DNA from: Halopelagius inordinatus
Lineage (GTDB): Archaea; Halobacteriota; Halobacteria; Halobacteriales; Haloferacaceae
Assembly (NCBI RefSeq): GCF_900113245.1
Contig: NZ_FOOQ01000001.1
Location: forward strand, 248,001-312,000
DNA: 64,000 nt
Reading direction: 5' to 3'
How positions within the stretch are numbered: the first letter of the stretch is position 1; each line of letters begins with the position of its first letter. Of this stretch, positions 14,248 through 21,160 are shown in pieces. The notes beneath the pieces are model-generated. The model did not search any database. It was not told where the DNA came from and was given only the letters and a program-made list of their open reading frames with translations. The position numbers were made by a program, and so were the translations under genes.

Positions 14248-15675
14248 ATGAAGGAATACCAGACCATCACCGAAATCAGCGGTCCGCTGGTGTTCGCCGA
14301 GGTCGACGAGCCGATCGGATACGACGAGATCGTCGAAATCGAGACGGAGAACGGCGAGACACTGCGCGGTCAGGTCCTCGAATCCTCGGACGGCCTCGTG
14401 GCCATCCAGGTGTTCGAGGGCACGAGCGGTATCGACCGGAACGCGTCCGTCCGCTTCATGGGCGAGACGCTGAAGATGCCCGTCACCGAGGACCTCCTCG
14501 GACGCGTCCTCGACGGGTCGGGCCAGCCGATAGACGGCGGCCCCGACATCGTCCCCGACGAGCGCCACGACATCGTCGGCGCGGCCATCAACCCCTACTC
14601 CCGAGAGTACCCCGAGGAGTTCATCCAGACCGGCGTTTCCGCCATCGACGGCATGAACACGCTGGTCCGCGGTCAGAAGCTCCCCATCTTCTCGGGGTCG
14701 GGGCTGCCGCACAACGAACTCGCGCTTCAGGTCGCCCGTCAGGCGACCGTTCCCGAAGAGGAGGAAGCGGGCGACGACGACGACGGCTCCGAGTTCGCGG
14801 TCATCTTCGGCGCGATGGGTATCACGGCCGAAGAGGCAAACGAGTTCATGGAGGACTTCGAGCGGACGGGCGCACTCGAACGCTCCGTCGTCTTCATGAA
14901 CCTCGCGGACGACCCCGCAGTCGAGCGGACGGTCACGCCGCGTCTCGCGCTCACCACCGCCGAGTATCTCGCGTTCGAGAAGGACTACCACGTGCTGGTC
15001 ATTCTCACGGACATGACCAACTACTGTGAGGCCCTGCGCGAAATCGGCGCGGCCCGCGAAGAGGTTCCGGGCCGTCGTGGCTACCCCGGATACATGTACA
15101 CCGACCTGGCGCAACTGTACGAACGCGCCGGTCGAATCCAGGGCCGCGAGGGTTCCGTGACGCAGATTCCCATCCTCACGATGCCGGGTGACGACGACAC
15201 GCACCCGATTCCGGACCTGACCGGATACATCACCGAGGGTCAGATCTACGTCGACCGTGACCTGAACAGCCAGGGCGTCGAACCGCCGATAAACGTCCTT
15301 CCCAGCCTCTCGCGGCTGATGGACGACGGTATCGGCGAGGGCCTGACGCGCGAGGACCACGCGGACGTCTCCGACCAGATGTACGCCGCGTACGCCGAGG
15401 GTGAGGACCTTCGGGACCTGGTGAACATCGTCGGCCGCGAGGCGCTGTCCGAGCGTGACAACACCTACCTCGACTTCGCCGACCGCTTCGAAGAGGAGTT
15501 CGTGGACCAGGGGTACGATACGAACCGCTCTATCGACGAGACGCTCGAAATCGGCTGGGACCTCCTGTCGATGTTCCCGAAGAAGGAGCTCAACCGCGTC
15601 GACGAGGAACTCATCGAAGAGCACTACCGAGAGTCCTCGACCGACGAAGGCGCCGAAGAAGTCACAGCAGACTGA
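14248..15675 (+). CDS. atpB: A-type ATP synthase regulatory subunit B
   Basis: This is the non-catalytic nucleotide-binding subunit that alternates with A in the head. It has 475 residues. The P-loop position is degenerate ([12 protein letters not shown]), as expected for B. The conserved [14 protein letters not shown] and [14 protein letters not shown] stretches are present. A T6 tract follows 17 nt after the stop, so the atpH-B message probably ends here and atpD is made from a separate transcript. Confidence 0.97.
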
Positions 15676-15692
15676 GCCGTCGCCCACGTTCG

Positions 15693-15698
15693 TTTTTT
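15693..15698 (+). terminator. U-tract terminator after atpB
   Basis: T6 (CGTTTTTTCC) starts 17 nt after the atpB stop codon. Short U-tracts are sufficient for termination by archaeal RNA polymerase. No hairpin is needed and none is seen. The tract separates the atp message from bat. Confidence 0.55.
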
Positions 15699-15774
15699 CC
15701 GCGTTCGCACCGTCCGAGCGCCGCGTTCGTTCGGCCACCCCGAAACGTATCACCGCACAGATCCTACTGAAGAC

Positions 15775-17739
15775 ATGGCGAACCGGCTGTTCCAAGAGCG
15801 CGTGTTGGTCGCCGTCGCAGACGACCGGACGTACGAACGGGCCGAGAGACTGCTCCGGTCGGTTCTCGACGACTGTTCCATCCGGCGTGTCACCCGCTCG
15901 GCCGACGCGCGGTCCGGCGACGGAGCCTTCGACTGCGTGGTGGTCGCCGACGATCTTCCCGACGGTCGAGCGACGAGCGTCGCCGACGCGTTCGCGGACG
16001 CGCCCGTCGTGATACTGCGTCACCCCGACAGCGACCTCACGGTGCCGGAGGCGTTCGACGCGGGTGCGGCGGACGTCGTCACCGTCGGAGAGACGAACCG
16101 CTTCGAGCGACTCGGCGAACGAGTCGCGAGTGCGATGACCTGGTGGCGACGTCGAGCGGAGTTGACAGAACGCATCGGAGAGGACCTGAAAGAGCAGGCC
16201 ATGGACGAGGCTCCGGTCGGTATCACTATCGCGGACATGTCGCTTCCGGACGGTCCGTTGGTGTACGTCAACGAGGCGTTCGAGACGACGACGGGCTACC
16301 CGAAATCGCAAGCGTTGGGCCGCAACTGTCGGTTTCTCCAGGGGCCGGGTACGGAGGAGGAACCGGTCGCCGAACTCCGGCGTGCAGTCGATTCCGAGTC
16401 GTCTGCGACGGTCGAACTGCTGAACTATCGACGCGACGGTGAGCCGTTTTGGAACCGAGTGGACATCGCACCGCTGTGCGACCCCGACGGACGAGTGACA
16501 CACTACGTCGGATTCCAGACGGACATCACCGCGCGCGTTCGCGCCGAAGAGGCTGTCGAACGCGAACGTGCCCGGCTTCAGCGACTCGTCGACCACATCG
16601 AGGGGCTACTCGTGGAGACGTCCGAAGTTCTCGTGCGCGCGCAGGCGAGAGACGAACTCGAGCGGAAGGTGTGCGAGCGAATCGCGGCCACGGAGCAGTA
16701 CTCGTGTGCGTGGATAGCCGACTGCGACCTCTCGCCGGAGGCCGTCGTTCCGGACGCGTGGGCGGGGGAGATGCCCTCGTCCGTCGTCGGGCTACGGATA
16801 GCCCTCGACGACACAGCCGACCCGGTCGCTCGGACCGTCGCGACGCGGACCCCGCAAATAGCCCGCGACCCCGAAGGACAGTTTCACCACAACGTCGTCC
16901 TCCCGTTCGGGGGCCTCGTCGCGGTCCCCTTACTCCACCGGGAGACGCTGTACGGCGTCCTCACCGTCTACGCGGAGACGGTCGACGAGCACGAGCGGAT
17001 AGTCCTCGGCGCGTTGGGCCGGGCGGTCGGTGCCGCCATCGACGCGTTCGAGAGTCGTCGAACGCTCATCACCGACAGCCGTCTGTCGCTTCGGTTCGAG
17101 GTGGTCGCGCCCGACTCGCCACTCGTCTCCGTCGCTCGCCGAGGTGACTGCCGCCTCGACTACGAAGGCGTCGTCGCCCGCGACGACGGGTCCGTCGTCC
17201 TGTTCGTCTCCTCGCCGTCGTCAGACGTCGAACTCGACAGCTCGGACATCCCGGGACTCGACCACGTTCACCGACTGCAACGAACCGGCGGCACGGCCGT
17301 CTACGAACTGCTTCTCTCTCCCGGTTCGCTGCTCTCTCAGATTGCAGAGGGAGGGGCGCGACTCACAGACCTCACCGTCGATGCGACGCGGGGCACGGTC
17401 GTAATCGACACGACTGTCGCCGACCGAACGCTCGGGCGCAGACTCCTCGAAGACGTCGAACGAACGTCTCGTTCGGTTCGACTACTCGCGGTCGGCGAGA
17501 ACGAAGACCCCACCGATACCCGACGGGCGTTCGCCGGTTCCGTCGAAGAGAAACTCACGGACAAACAGCGAACCGCGCTCCAACTCGCGCATCTCGGGGG
17601 GTTCTTCGAGTGGCCGCACGGTATCTCGGGAGACGAGTTGGCGGACGCGATGGATATCTCGCGTTCGACGTATCACCAACACCTCCGCGCGGCCGAGAAG
17701 AAACTCGTCTCGCAGTTCTACCGGCACCACCCCAACTAG
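15775..17739 (+). CDS. bat: Bacterio-opsin activator with receiver-like, LOV, GAF and HTH domains
   Basis: This 654-residue transcriptional regulator is the probable activator of bop. A receiver-like domain without a clear phosphorylation site (1-125) precedes a PAS domain (about 140-255) that is a full LOV domain. The LOV features are GRNCRFLQG with Cys185, NYRRDG with Asn217, FWN with Asn227, and GFQTD with Gln248, all of them the flavin-contact residues. A GAF domain (about 275-420), the Bat-specific domain (about 430-580) and an HTH_10 domain (about 595-650, SGDELADAMDISRSTYHQHL) follow. The length is close to Halobacterium Bat. It lies immediately upstream of bop, in the same direction. 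Confidence 0.9.
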   Translation: MANRLFQERVLVAVADDRTYERAERLLRSVLDDCSIRRVTRSADARSGDGAFDCVVVADDLPDGRATSVADAFADAPVVILRHPDSDLTVPEAFDAGAADVVTVGETNRFERLGERVASAMTWWRRRAELTERIGEDLKEQAMDEAPVGITIADMSLPDGPLVYVNEAFETTTGYPKSQALGRNCRFLQGPGTEEEPVAELRRAVDSESSATVELLNYRRDGEPFWNRVDIAPLCDPDGRVTHYVGFQTDITARVRAEEAVERERARLQRLVDHIEGLLVETSEVLVRAQARDELERKVCERIAATEQYSCAWIADCDLSPEAVVPDAWAGEMPSSVVGLRIALDDTADPVARTVATRTPQIARDPEGQFHHNVVLPFGGLVAVPLLHRETLYGVLTVYAETVDEHERIVLGALGRAVGAAIDAFESRRTLITDSRLSLRFEVVAPDSPLVSVARRGDCRLDYEGVVARDDGSVVLFVSSPSSDVELDSSDIPGLDHVHRLQRTGGTAVYELLLSPGSLLSQIAEGGARLTDLTVDATRGTVVIDTTVADRTLGRRLLEDVERTSRSVRLLAVGENEDPTDTRRAFAGSVEEKLTDKQRTALQLAHLGGFFEWPHGISGDELADAMDISRSTYHQHLRAAEKKLVSQFYRHHPN

Positions 17740-17743
17740 TTTG
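17730..17743 (+). promoter_or_regulatory. Bat-type upstream activator sequence of bop
   Basis: The 14-mer CCCCAACTAGTTTG matches the Halobacterium bop-regulon UAS, which I recall as ACCnnACTAGTTnG, at 10 of 11 fixed positions. Only the first base differs. It sits 44-57 nt before the bop start, almost the same place as in Halobacterium, and overlaps the bat stop codon. CTAG is generally scarce in haloarchaeal DNA, so a chance match is unlikely. Confidence 0.65.
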
Positions 17744-17752
17744 GTAGGGCCG

Positions 17753-17760
17753 ATATGCAA
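17753..17760 (+). promoter_or_regulatory. Weak TATA-like box of bop
   Basis: ATATGCAA is centred about 30 nt before the bop ATG and about 20 nt downstream of the UAS. This spacing fits an activator-dependent core promoter with a start site 1-3 nt before the ATG. The match to a TATA consensus is weak, consistent with a need for Bat. Confidence 0.4.
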
Positions 17761-17786
17761 ACTCATGCCATACTTGTGAGTGTACT

Positions 17787-18518
17787 ATGGCAACCCCTGG
17801 AAGCGAATCGATATGGCTGTGGCTCGGTACGGCCGGAATGACGCTCGGAACGCTCTTCTTCATCGCCCGCGGGTGGGGCGTGAAGGACGAGAAAGAACAG
17901 CGGTTCTACATCATCACGATATTCATAACCACCATCGCGTCGGCGGCGTACTTCTCGATGGCGACCGGATTCGGCCTCACACAGGTGGAAGTCGGTACTC
18001 AGGTGCTCGACATCTACTGGGCCCGCTACGCGGACTGGTTGTTCACCACGCCGCTGTTGCTTCTCGACCTCGCGCTCCTCGCGGGGGCGAACAGGAACAC
18101 CATCTACACGCTCGTCGGTCTCGACGTGTTCATGATCGGAACCGGACTCGCCGGTGCGTTCGCCTCCTCGGCACCCGCACGAATCGCCTGGTGGGCTATC
18201 AGCACCGTCGCGCTGTTGTTCCTCCTGTACTTCCTGGTCGAGGCGCTCTCGGAGGCCGCAAAGACGCAGACCGAGTCGGTTCGGAAACTGACGAACACGC
18301 TCCGAAACATGATAATCGTCCTCTGGTTGGCGTACCCCGTCGTCTGGATTCTCGGCACCGAAGGGACCGTCGGCTTCCTCCCGTTGTACGTCGAGACGGC
18401 GGCGTTCATGGTTCTCGACCTCACCGCGAAGGTGGGATTCGGGGTCGTCCTGCTGCGCAGTCACAGCATCCTCGAAGAGGCCGGACAGACGACTCCGGCG
18501 GCCGCGACTGCCGACTGA
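17787..18518 (+). CDS. bop: Bacteriorhodopsin, light-driven proton pump
   Basis: This seven-helix retinal protein of 243 residues moves protons out of the cell in light. Every residue of the pump pathway is present: Arg80, Asp83 (proton acceptor), Thr87, Asp94 (proton donor) in RYADWLFTTPLLLLDLA, the release pair Glu192 and Glu203, Asp211, and the retinal Schiff-base lysine Lys215 in LDLTAKVGFG. This is a proton pump rather than a halorhodopsin or sensory rhodopsin, because the Asp/Thr/Asp motif is intact. There is no long N-terminal leader; the protein starts MATPGSES. It lies between bat and the retinal synthesis genes. Confidence 0.97.
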   Translation: MATPGSESIWLWLGTAGMTLGTLFFIARGWGVKDEKEQRFYIITIFITTIASAAYFSMATGFGLTQVEVGTQVLDIYWARYADWLFTTPLLLLDLALLAGANRNTIYTLVGLDVFMIGTGLAGAFASSAPARIAWWAISTVALLFLLYFLVEALSEAAKTQTESVRKLTNTLRNMIIVLWLAYPVVWILGTEGTVGFLPLYVETAAFMVLDLTAKVGFGVVLLRSHSILEEAGQTTPAAATAD

Positions 18519-18535
18519 GAGCCGCCTCGGCTCTC
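18517..18535 (+). terminator. Stem-loop terminator after bop
   Basis: A perfect 7-bp hairpin (GAGAGCC/GGCTCTC, 5-nt loop) starts within the bop stop codon and is followed by CGTTTCTGT. It probably ends or protects the abundant bop message before the crtY promoter. Confidence 0.5.
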
Positions 18536-18548
18536 CGTTTCTGTAACG

Positions 18549-18556
18549 TTTAAAAA
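18549..18556 (+). promoter_or_regulatory. TATA box for crtY-brp
   Basis: TTTAAAAA lies 61-68 nt before the crtY start and is the strongest AT-rich box in the gap. It predicts a start near 18580 and a leader of about 37 nt. No Bat-type site is visible upstream, so the retinal synthesis genes may be controlled differently from bop. Confidence 0.5.
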
Positions 18557-18616
18557 CACTCACGCAAACCATTCAGTCATCGTGTCTCACACCATTCCCG
18601 ACCATCAGAGAGAACC

Positions 18617-19339
18617 GTGAGCGTGCGGCTCACGTACTTCGGCTTTCACGCCGTGTTTCTCCTGCCAGCGCTGGCGGTACTGGCAGTCGGCCTCTCTCAC
18701 AGTCGTCGGCGGCTGGACGCCACTCACTGGGTCGGGACGGCGCTCATCACCGTGGTCGCCCTCCTGTACACGACGCCGTGGGACAACCACCTCATCTCCC
18801 GCGGCGTCTGGGGGTACGGCGACGGTGTCGTCGCCCTGCGGGTGTGGCTCGTCCCCGTCGAGGAACTCCTGTTCATGCTCTTGCAACCGCTCGTCGTCGC
18901 GCTCTGGTTGTACGCTCTCGCGCTGGCGGTGAGGTCCGCCTCGGTGACGACGCGAGACCGACTTCTCGGCGTCGCGGCGGGGGCTCTCGTCGGGGCTGTC
19001 GGCCTCGTTCTCTACGTGTTCGGCGGTCAGACGTACTACCTCGGAGCCATCCTCACGTGGGCCGCTCCGGTCCTCGCACTCCAGTGGGGGTTCGGGTGGC
19101 CCTACCTGTGGGCGGTCCGTCGGACGTTCGCCTTCGGCGTCGCCGTCCCGACGGTGTACTTCTGTCTGGCCGACCGCGTCGCGCTTCAGTTCGGCATCTG
19201 GCACATCTCGGCCGACCACACCACGGGCATCGCCCTGTTCGGACTCCCCATCGAGGAGGCGACGTTCTTCTTCGTCACGAACCTGTTCGTGGTGCAGGGT
19301 CTCCTCTTGTTTCACTGGGTGGTCGAACGATGGCGCTGA
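18617..19339 (+). CDS. crtY: Lycopene beta-cyclase, fused CrtYc-CrtYd type
   Basis: This membrane enzyme closes both ends of lycopene to give beta-carotene, the precursor of retinal. It has 240 residues with about seven hydrophobic helices. Two homologous halves are visible, each with the family motifs (TTPWDNHLISRGVWGYGDGV in the first, PIEEATFFFVTNL in the second). It starts with GTG. The end overlaps brp by 10 nt. Its placement between bop and brp shows that it serves chromophore synthesis. Confidence 0.9.
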   Translation: MSVRLTYFGFHAVFLLPALAVLAVGLSHSRRRLDATHWVGTALITVVALLYTTPWDNHLISRGVWGYGDGVVALRVWLVPVEELLFMLLQPLVVALWLYALALAVRSASVTTRDRLLGVAAGALVGAVGLVLYVFGGQTYYLGAILTWAAPVLALQWGFGWPYLWAVRRTFAFGVAVPTVYFCLADRVALQFGIWHISADHTTGIALFGLPIEEATFFFVTNLFVVQGLLLFHWVVERWR

Positions 19340-20370
19340 GCGAACGCCCCGCCGTCGATAGAAGAGTGAAGCGACGGCTCGCTCGAACGGTGTTTCCCGT
19401 CGCGTGGGTCGCCCTCGCGGCCGTCGGTGTCGCCTCGCTCGTCGGCGTCACCCTCGGCGGCCCCTCTCGGTACGTCCCCCTGTTAGCGAGCGTCGTCTTC
19501 CTCGGACTGCCGCACGGTGCGCTCGACCACGTGACCGTGCCGCGCGCCCGCGGGTCGGAGCCCTCGGTTCGGTCGCTCGCCGCCGTGGGGGCGCTGTATC
19601 TCGTCTTCGGCGGCCTCTACGCGGTCGTCTGGTTTCTCACCCCCGCCGCGGCGTTCGTCGGCTTTCTCCTTTTGACGTGGTTTCACTGGGGGCAGGGGGA
19701 CGTCTACCCGCTCGTCTCTCTGACCGAGGAGACGCACCTTCGAACCCGGGGGCAACGCGCCCTCGCGGCGACCGTCCGCGGCGGGATTCCGATGGTCGTC
19801 CCGCTCGTCGCGTTCCCGGAGACGTACCGCCGCGTCGCGGCGACGACCGTCGAACTGTTCGCCCCGGAAGTGACGTTCGCGTGGCTCGTTTCCCCGCCGC
19901 TCCGAATCTCCGTCGGCGTCGGGCTGGCTCTTGTCACCCTCGCGTCGCTTCTCCTCGGGTGGCGTCGAGCGCCACACGGTCCCTCTCGCACCGCGTGGCT
20001 GGTCGACGTCGGCGAGTCGGTGCTGCTTTGGGCGTTCTTCCTCGTCGTCCCCCCGCTGGTCGCCATCGGGCTGTACTTCCCGTTGTGGCACTCGCTGCGG
20101 CATCTCGCACGCCTCGCTGCGCTCGATTCGCCGGTCGCCGACGCGCTGTCGAACGGCCACTCTCTTTCGGCCGCCGCCTCTCTCGGCCGCGACGCACTAC
20201 CGATGACGGCCGGCGCGGTGGTCTTTCTCGGCGCTCTCGCGTTGACCGTTCCGACGGCCGTCGGTGGTATCGACGAAGTCGCGTCCGTCTATCTCGTCTC
20301 GCTCGCCGTCCTCACCCTCCCGCACGTGGTCGTCGTCTCGGTACTCGACCGGGTGCAAGGGATCTGGTGA
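19330..20370 (+). CDS. brp: Beta-carotene 15,15'-dioxygenase, Brp/Blh family
   Basis: This integral-membrane oxygenase cleaves beta-carotene into two retinal molecules. It has about 346 residues with many hydrophobic helices. The iron-binding histidine motifs of Brp/Blh are present: GLPHGALDHVTV near the start, TWFHWGQGD, LWHSLRHLARL and LTLPHVVVVSVLD. The start ATG at 19330 (MALSERPAVD) lies inside the end of crtY. Upstream in-frame codons are Arg-rich and belong to the crtY frame. It completes the bop, cyclase and retinal kit. Confidence 0.93.
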   Translation: MALSERPAVDRRVKRRLARTVFPVAWVALAAVGVASLVGVTLGGPSRYVPLLASVVFLGLPHGALDHVTVPRARGSEPSVRSLAAVGALYLVFGGLYAVVWFLTPAAAFVGFLLLTWFHWGQGDVYPLVSLTEETHLRTRGQRALAATVRGGIPMVVPLVAFPETYRRVAATTVELFAPEVTFAWLVSPPLRISVGVGLALVTLASLLLGWRRAPHGPSRTAWLVDVGESVLLWAFFLVVPPLVAIGLYFPLWHSLRHLARLAALDSPVADALSNGHSLSAAASLGRDALPMTAGAVVFLGALALTVPTAVGGIDEVASVYLVSLAVLTLPHVVVVSVLDRVQGIW

Positions 20371-20426
20371 CCCTCTCGTGGCCCGTCGTGGACTCGGTTC
20401 GGAGCCGGTTCGCGGAGACTGAAAAG

Positions 20427-20433
20427 GATTAAC
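20427..20433 (+). promoter_or_regulatory. TATA box of atpD
   Basis: GATTAAC is centred about 31 nt before the atpD start, so a nearly leaderless atpD message is expected. It shows that atpD need not depend on read-through from the rhodopsin genes. Confidence 0.5.
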
Positions 20434-20461
20434 CCCCTCCGTCCACAAGCGTCCCCCAAGG

Positions 20462-21160
20462 ATGGCCAACGACGTCAAACCGACTCGGAAGAACCTGATG
20501 GCGATAGAGGACCGCATCGAACTCTCCGAGCGAGGCCACGACACGCTGGAGCAGAAACGCGACGGCCTCATCATGGAGTTCATGGACATCCTCGACCAGG
20601 CGCAGGACGTCCGTTCGGAACTCAACACCAACTACGAGACCGCACAGCGGAAGATAAACATGGCGCGCGCGATGGAGGGCGACGTCGCGGTGCGCGGTGC
20701 GGCCGCGGCGCTGAAAGAACACCCGGAGATCACGACGCAGTCGAAAAACATCATGGGCGTCGTCGTCCCGCAGATAGAGTCCTCGCGCGTCAGAAAGAGC
20801 CTCGACCAGCGCGGCTACGGGCTGCTCGGGTCGTCCGCGCGCATCGACGAGGCCGCAGACGCCTACGAGGAACTGCTCGAAAGCATCATCCTCGCCGCGG
20901 AAGTCGAGACGGCGATGAAGAAGATGCTCAGAGAGATAGAGACGACGAAGCGCCGCGTCAACGCCCTCGAATTCAAGCTCCTCCCCGACCTCTACGAGAA
21001 CCAAGAGTACATCGAGCAGAAACTCGAAGAACAGGAGCGCGAAGAGACGTTCCGCCTGAAGAAGATAAAGGGCAAGAAAGAGGAAGAAGAGAAGGAAGAA
21101 CGCGAGGCCGAGGCGGCCGAAGAGGCCGCCGAAGCCGAGAGACTCCCGGCGGACGACTGA
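20462..21160 (+). CDS. atpD: A-type ATP synthase subunit D (central rotor shaft)
   Basis: This 232-residue coiled-coil rotor shaft turns inside the A3B3 head, the archaeal counterpart of gamma. The N-terminal motif [20 protein letters not shown] and the conserved [18 protein letters not shown] helix are both present. The C-terminal 30 residues are highly acidic and Glu/Ala-rich, a halophile addition. It is separated from atpB by the 4.6-kb bat-bop-crtY-brp block. Confidence 0.96.

Follow-up and report, generated by a model that had tools for sequence, protein, structure and literature searches.

The bacterio-opsin activator (Bat) of Halopelagius inordinatus was found to carry a complete LOV domain, including the cysteine expected to form the flavin adduct, and to be encoded directly upstream of bop. 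The window, that is, the whole stretch of 64,000 nucleotides analyzed here, holds bat, bop and the genes for retinal synthesis side by side, with a conserved operator-like site between bat and bop (Table 1). Taking these features together with the phylogeny of the family, we consider it fairly probable that this Bat uses a flavin to respond to light and redox state and acts on the operator next to its gene, and that it descends from a Cys-bearing ancestor.

Table 1. Features of the bat-bop region, in positions of the window.
Feature	Position	Strand	Remarks
atpB, A-type ATP synthase subunit B	14248..15675	+	upstream border of the cassette
bat, LOV-containing bacterio-opsin activator	15775..17739	+	ATG to TAG, open, 654 aa
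receiver-like (beta-alpha)5 fold, residues 9-111	15799..16107	+	secondary structure of the model
LOV domain (PAS_9), residues 141-253	16195..16533	+	Pfam, PDB matches, AlphaFold2 model
Cys185 codon, predicted flavin adduct-forming cysteine	16327..16329	+	C 119, P 15, H 7 of 141 homologues
Asn217 codon, flavin contact	16423..16425	+	N in 141/141
Asn227 codon, flavin contact	16453..16455	+	N in 141/141
Gln248 codon, signalling glutamine	16516..16518	+	Q in 140/141
long predicted helix between LOV and GAF, residues 252-288	16528..16638	+	model
GAF_2 domain, residues 292-423	16648..17043	+	Pfam
BAT domain (GAF- and HTH_10-associated), residues 434-587	17074..17535	+	Pfam
HTH_10 DNA-binding domain, residues 594-645	17554..17709	+	Pfam
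candidate Bat operator ACCCCAACTAGTTTGGTA	17729..17746	+	palindrome-like, covers the stop codon of bat, 58 bp before the bop start
bop, bacteriorhodopsin-like proton pump	17787..18518	+	has the retinal lysine and Asp residues of the pump type
lycopene cyclase (CarR-type) gene	18617..19339	+	
brp/blh, beta-carotene 15,15'-dioxygenase, retinal synthesis	19330..20370	+	
atpD, A-type ATP synthase subunit D	20462..21160	+	downstream border of the cassette

Four Pfam domains scored above the cut-off in the Bat of the window, namely PAS_9 (residues 148-253), GAF_2, BAT and HTH_10, which is the architecture expected of a Bat protein. With the parts seen in an AlphaFold2 model made from 32 family members, the domain order reads as a degenerate receiver-like domain, LOV, a helix, GAF, BAT and HTH_10. 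The full-length model reached a pTM of only 0.41, and the arrangement of the domains was therefore not interpreted. At the N-terminus, no receiver domain was matched in Pfam up to an E-value of 5, and the phosphorylation site and lysine of a phosphorylatable receiver, judged by eye, looked degenerate.

In a search of PDB sequences, the PAS region of Bat preferred solved LOV structures over other PAS proteins, with a best E-value of 2e-38. The top match was a LOV domain of Meiothermus (47% identity over 137 columns), and phototropin LOV1 was also among the best. The LOV part of the AlphaFold2 model, with block pLDDT mostly 87-96 throughout the domain, superposed on Chlamydomonas phototropin LOV1 at 0.9 Å over 105 columns, which places its fold nearest to solved LOV structures. 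A non-LOV PAS domain of the Aer or NifL type was considered and rejected, since LOV proteins matched best and the NifL model was far weaker than the LOV models. The motif GRNCRFLQG occupies residues 182-190 and agrees with GxNCRFLQ, the adduct cysteine included, and the pair of flavin-contact asparagines and the signalling glutamine are present as well. Read from the open reading frame, Cys185, Asn217, Asn227 and Gln248 stood exactly where an earlier note on this DNA had placed them; Gln189, like the two asparagines, is invariant in all 141 aligned homologues. The same note had spoken of a full LOV photoreceptor domain, a description well supported by the signature and the fold. It is also the sole LOV domain found in the genome, where the next matches were PAS domains (E-values of 2e-7 and 3e-6) that lack the Cys motif. 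On this comparison, the PAS domain of Bat is almost certainly a LOV domain. The four residues had further been taken together as those that define LOV blue-light sensors. This can be refined: Cys-less Bats, too, retain Asn217, Asn227 and Gln248, so that Cys185 alone tells an adduct-forming LOV domain from a Cys-less LOV-like one.

The end of bat is separated from the start of bop by 47 bp, and the lycopene cyclase gene and blh follow, so that bop and the retinal-synthesis genes to which a Bat gene is expected to be linked all lie directly downstream. This cassette of bat, bop, lycopene cyclase and blh sits inside the A-type ATP synthase operon, between atpB and atpD (14248-21160), a placement already known for many haloarchaea (PMC7755889). 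The pump HmBRI of Haloarcula marismortui, where bop alone occupies this position, has been cited as constitutive and without an effect of light (PMC7755889). The frames of lycopene cyclase and blh share 10 bp (19330-19339), which suggests coupled translation. Genome-wide, about 30 HTH_10 matches exceeded the cut-off, and nine BAT-domain matches were strong.

The segment ACCCCAACTAGTTTGG (17729-17744) fits ACCnnnACTAGTTnGG, which we take to be the consensus of the H. salinarum bop UAS, with zero mismatches. An exact match to ACCnnnACTAGTTnGG occurs once in the 3.5-Mb genome, upstream of bop, and the ACTAGT core of the candidate operator includes the bat stop codon. The UAS-type site upstream of bop is also conserved independently of this consensus, as the promoters of relatives' bop genes near bat contain the palindrome-like TACCnnACTAGTnnGGTA. 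Among 55 such bop genes, which include a few duplicate records of one genome, 50 were preceded by a site matching at least 10 of the 14 positions, in most cases at -53 to -61, and five had no clear site. Random segments drawn from these loci reached this threshold in 49 of 3000 cases (1.6%). The site varied with the Bat clade, being TACCTgACTGGGTTGGCA-like in the group with proline at residue 185 and TACCgtACTGtTTGGG-like in the group with histidine. Eight separately fetched bop genes gave two good sites (11 and 13 of 14), one at 9 and five without any. ACTAGT alone was rejected as the signal, since it is not enriched in the window; what stands out is the complete site, placed at a constant distance. 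No wider Bat regulon was found, the genome having one exact site and the one-mismatch matches lacking the ACTAGT core; scans of Haloferax allowing two mismatches were not informative. The name bop activator, used in the earlier note, is thus well supported by the HTH_10 domain, by the adjacent bop gene and by the conserved operator-like site between them. It is quite likely that the Bat of the window controls bop.

The family was then surveyed across the order, where 83 out of 295 genomes contained a homologue at 1e-100, and 141 Bat rows, some of them duplicate records, were aligned. A bop gene was present within 6.5 kb for 38 of the 118 rows with Cys at residue 185 (the window not counted), for 10 of the 15 with Pro and for 6 of the 7 with His. 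Cys was thus kept in 38 of 54 bop-linked Bats compared with 80 of 86 unlinked ones; it is not commoner when bop is near, and its presence does not depend on linkage to bop. In seven Haloferax genomes, bat occurs without neighboring bop genes in the order atpB, bat, atpD, and these Bats retain the full set of LOV residues with the motif GRNCRYLQG. A search at 1e-40 found no bop in six of the seven genomes and one bop, located elsewhere, in the seventh. Because Haloferax keeps an intact LOV Bat mostly without bop, conservation of the LOV domain need not mean control of bop. At the bat stop codon, one Haloferax genome has ACCCATACTAGTCGGGCA (11/14) and others have weaker similar strings, which look as though the operator had decayed once the bop genes were lost.

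The survey also argued against two proposed routes to the loss of the cysteine. Loss of Cys after loss of bop was rejected, since Haloferax keeps Cys with no bop in six of seven genomes and most Bats of either Cys-less clade are linked to bop. Loss of Arg202, which aligns with a conserved LOV arginine, before that of Cys was not supported: this arginine is absent in 22 of 22 Cys-less rows, but 26 of the 119 Cys rows lack it as well, and the Cys-bearing sister group of the His clade still has it. Some Bats deviate in other ways. In Halosimplex and relatives (5 rows) the motif is GRNCN(F/L)(M/L)QG, in which the Arg after Cys has become Asn, Arg202 has become Ala and Cys is kept; flavin phosphate binding may possibly be altered in these proteins. 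Halosimplex aquaticum has bat, lycopene cyclase and blh in the atpB-atpD interval and no bop. One protein is 51% identical to the H. salinarum-type Bat over GAF, BAT and HTH and has no recognizable LOV motif, as if its sensor module had been replaced.

A tree was calculated from 93 rows less than 80% identical, with the motif columns left out. His rows and Pro rows each came out as a single clade, both with an SH-aLRT of 100, which amounts to two changes in total. The His clade neighbors Cys rows with GVNCRFLQG (98) and the Pro clade neighbors three Cys rows (100), and a single clade of His and Pro rows was rejected by the AU test (p-AU 0.00017). In a second tree, covering GAF to HTH and with six paralogues that carry the BAT domain, all from the same genome, as the outgroup, both groups stayed single clades and three changes were needed, the outgroup split included. 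Since the outgroup paralogues lack the LOV motif, the root rests on the C-terminal part only, and both trees are short-search trees without bootstrap and with some weak deep branches. The simplest reading of these trees is a Cys-bearing ancestor with two separate losses, one from Cys to His and one from Cys to Pro. Cys-less Bats as derived forms run against the published idea that they resemble an ancestral redox-sensing flavoprotein and that ancestral LOV proteins were possibly Cys-less redox sensors (PMC4682037). That adduct-based gating by blue light was the ancestral haloarchaeal control of the pump operon through Bat, and that His (H. salinarum) and Pro (Halorubrum) arose as independent losses turning a photoreceptor into a redox sensor, is in our judgment an evenly balanced proposition.

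From these features we infer a mechanism in which Bat would be the dedicated regulator of the bop operon, a one-component transcription factor that answers to light and redox state. Flavin would be bound by the LOV domain, and blue light would lead to a reversible adduct between Cys185 and the flavin, with the flavin N5 protonated. Gln248 would relay this change through the helix of residues 252-288 to the GAF and BAT domains and on to HTH_10, so that binding of Bat, probably as a dimer, to the operator over its own stop codon would be altered and transcription of bop, lycopene cyclase and blh would change. In the Bats of H. salinarum and Halorubrum, where Cys would have been lost separately, at most flavin redox or photoreduction sensing would be left. 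An effect of blue light through Cys185 is probable in the Bat of the window. The earlier proposal that Bat senses light directly and switches the pump on under blue light is a reasonable inference from the sequence, while the sign of the bop response cannot be read from it.

The LOV domain may instead serve mainly as a flavin redox sensor for oxygen, in which low oxygen reduces the flavin and thereby activates Bat, Cys185 only fine-tuning this or amounting to a side reaction. The H. salinarum-type and Halorubrum-type Bats are consistent with this, as they lack the cysteine but retain all the other main flavin residues, and most of them have bop nearby. In the BAT-LOV* domain of Halorubrum (Cys to Pro), flavin is bound and the conformation shifts upon chemical reduction; a direct response of BAT to light was suggested there but not definitively established (PMC4682037). 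Moreover, both low oxygen and light induce bop in H. salinarum (PMC3184054). On the other hand, Cys is kept in 119 of 141 rows and at many deep branches, which would be unexpected for a neutral position, and its loss on just two occasions among the sampled Bats suggests that selection normally acts on it. We regard a mainly redox-sensing LOV domain as possible but doubtful for the Bat of the window.

A light-active LOV domain might also work in the reverse direction or as a modulator, for instance if blue light weakened or released Bat and so limited bop in strong light. LOV-effector switches of either sign exist, and neither the sequence nor the position of the operator fixes the sign. In H. 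salinarum, light and low oxygen raise bop via Bat, Brz and Brb (PMC3184054), which makes a response of this kind unlikely. That the LOV domain is a relic, with Bat controlled by GAF or by partner proteins such as Brz and Brb, is very improbable: bop control in H. salinarum requires these two proteins besides Bat (PMC3184054) and the receiver-like module is already degenerate, but the flavin-contact residues are invariant in 141 homologues, and in comparison with Cys-bearing relatives LOV and HTH are the best conserved domains of Bat (65-75% against 26-51% for GAF and BAT).

The Bat of the window was compared with published systems. A 2014 review (PMC4844311) counts 167 archaeal LOV proteins, reports 30% of the halobacterial ones as fused to HTH, and notes one LOV-HTH arrangement that resembles Bat as well as the missing cysteine of H. 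salinarum Bat. Its halobacterial form, (RR/GAF/PAS)+LOV+nPAS+kGAF+HTH, has the domain order and the complete LOV signature in common with the Bat of the window, which belongs to a kind already reported at that time. Relative to these statements, the window adds the adjacency to bop, the conserved operator-like site and, through the phylogeny, Cys-less forms as derived. H. salinarum Bat, which together with Brz and Brb is needed for light induction of bop (PMC3184054), is homologous to the Bat of the window in LOV, GAF, BAT and HTH_10. The LOV domains of the window and the His group are about 55% identical, and the motif in strain DSM 3754 is GANHRFLQG, with His in place of the adduct Cys. Among the relatives of H. 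salinarum, bop is near bat but on the other strand, and brp/blh lies before bat. Halorubrum BAT-LOV* shares the family and the LOV pocket but has Pro for Cys and forms its own clade nested among Cys-bearing Bats. A different archaeal LOV protein with the cysteine formed the adduct and worked in high KCl, in a study that describes itself as the first to characterize a photoreceptor of this archaeal type functionally (PMC12202551). LOV-HTH one-component regulators such as EL222 also have a LOV domain, and the Bat of the window differs from them by HTH_10 and by having GAF and BAT inserted before the HTH. In the literature searched, which left most subscription papers outside, no report was found of a Cys-bearing LOV-Bat next to bop or of the direction of Cys loss, and we do not claim that none exists.

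Because H. salinarum Bat supports light-dependent induction of bop without Cys (PMC3184054), and because Cys is no commoner in bop-linked Bats, bop control across the family cannot strictly depend on the cysteine, and the function in common may be flavin redox sensing. The Bats examined in the cited work are the ones without the reactive cysteine. The Bat of the window combines the complete photochemistry signature with a target promoter at a distance of 58 bp and a genome in which no rival LOV protein was found, and with these three features one point mutation could test direct light sensing by Bat. The tree of the Bat family, in turn, bears on which came first, light sensing or redox sensing.
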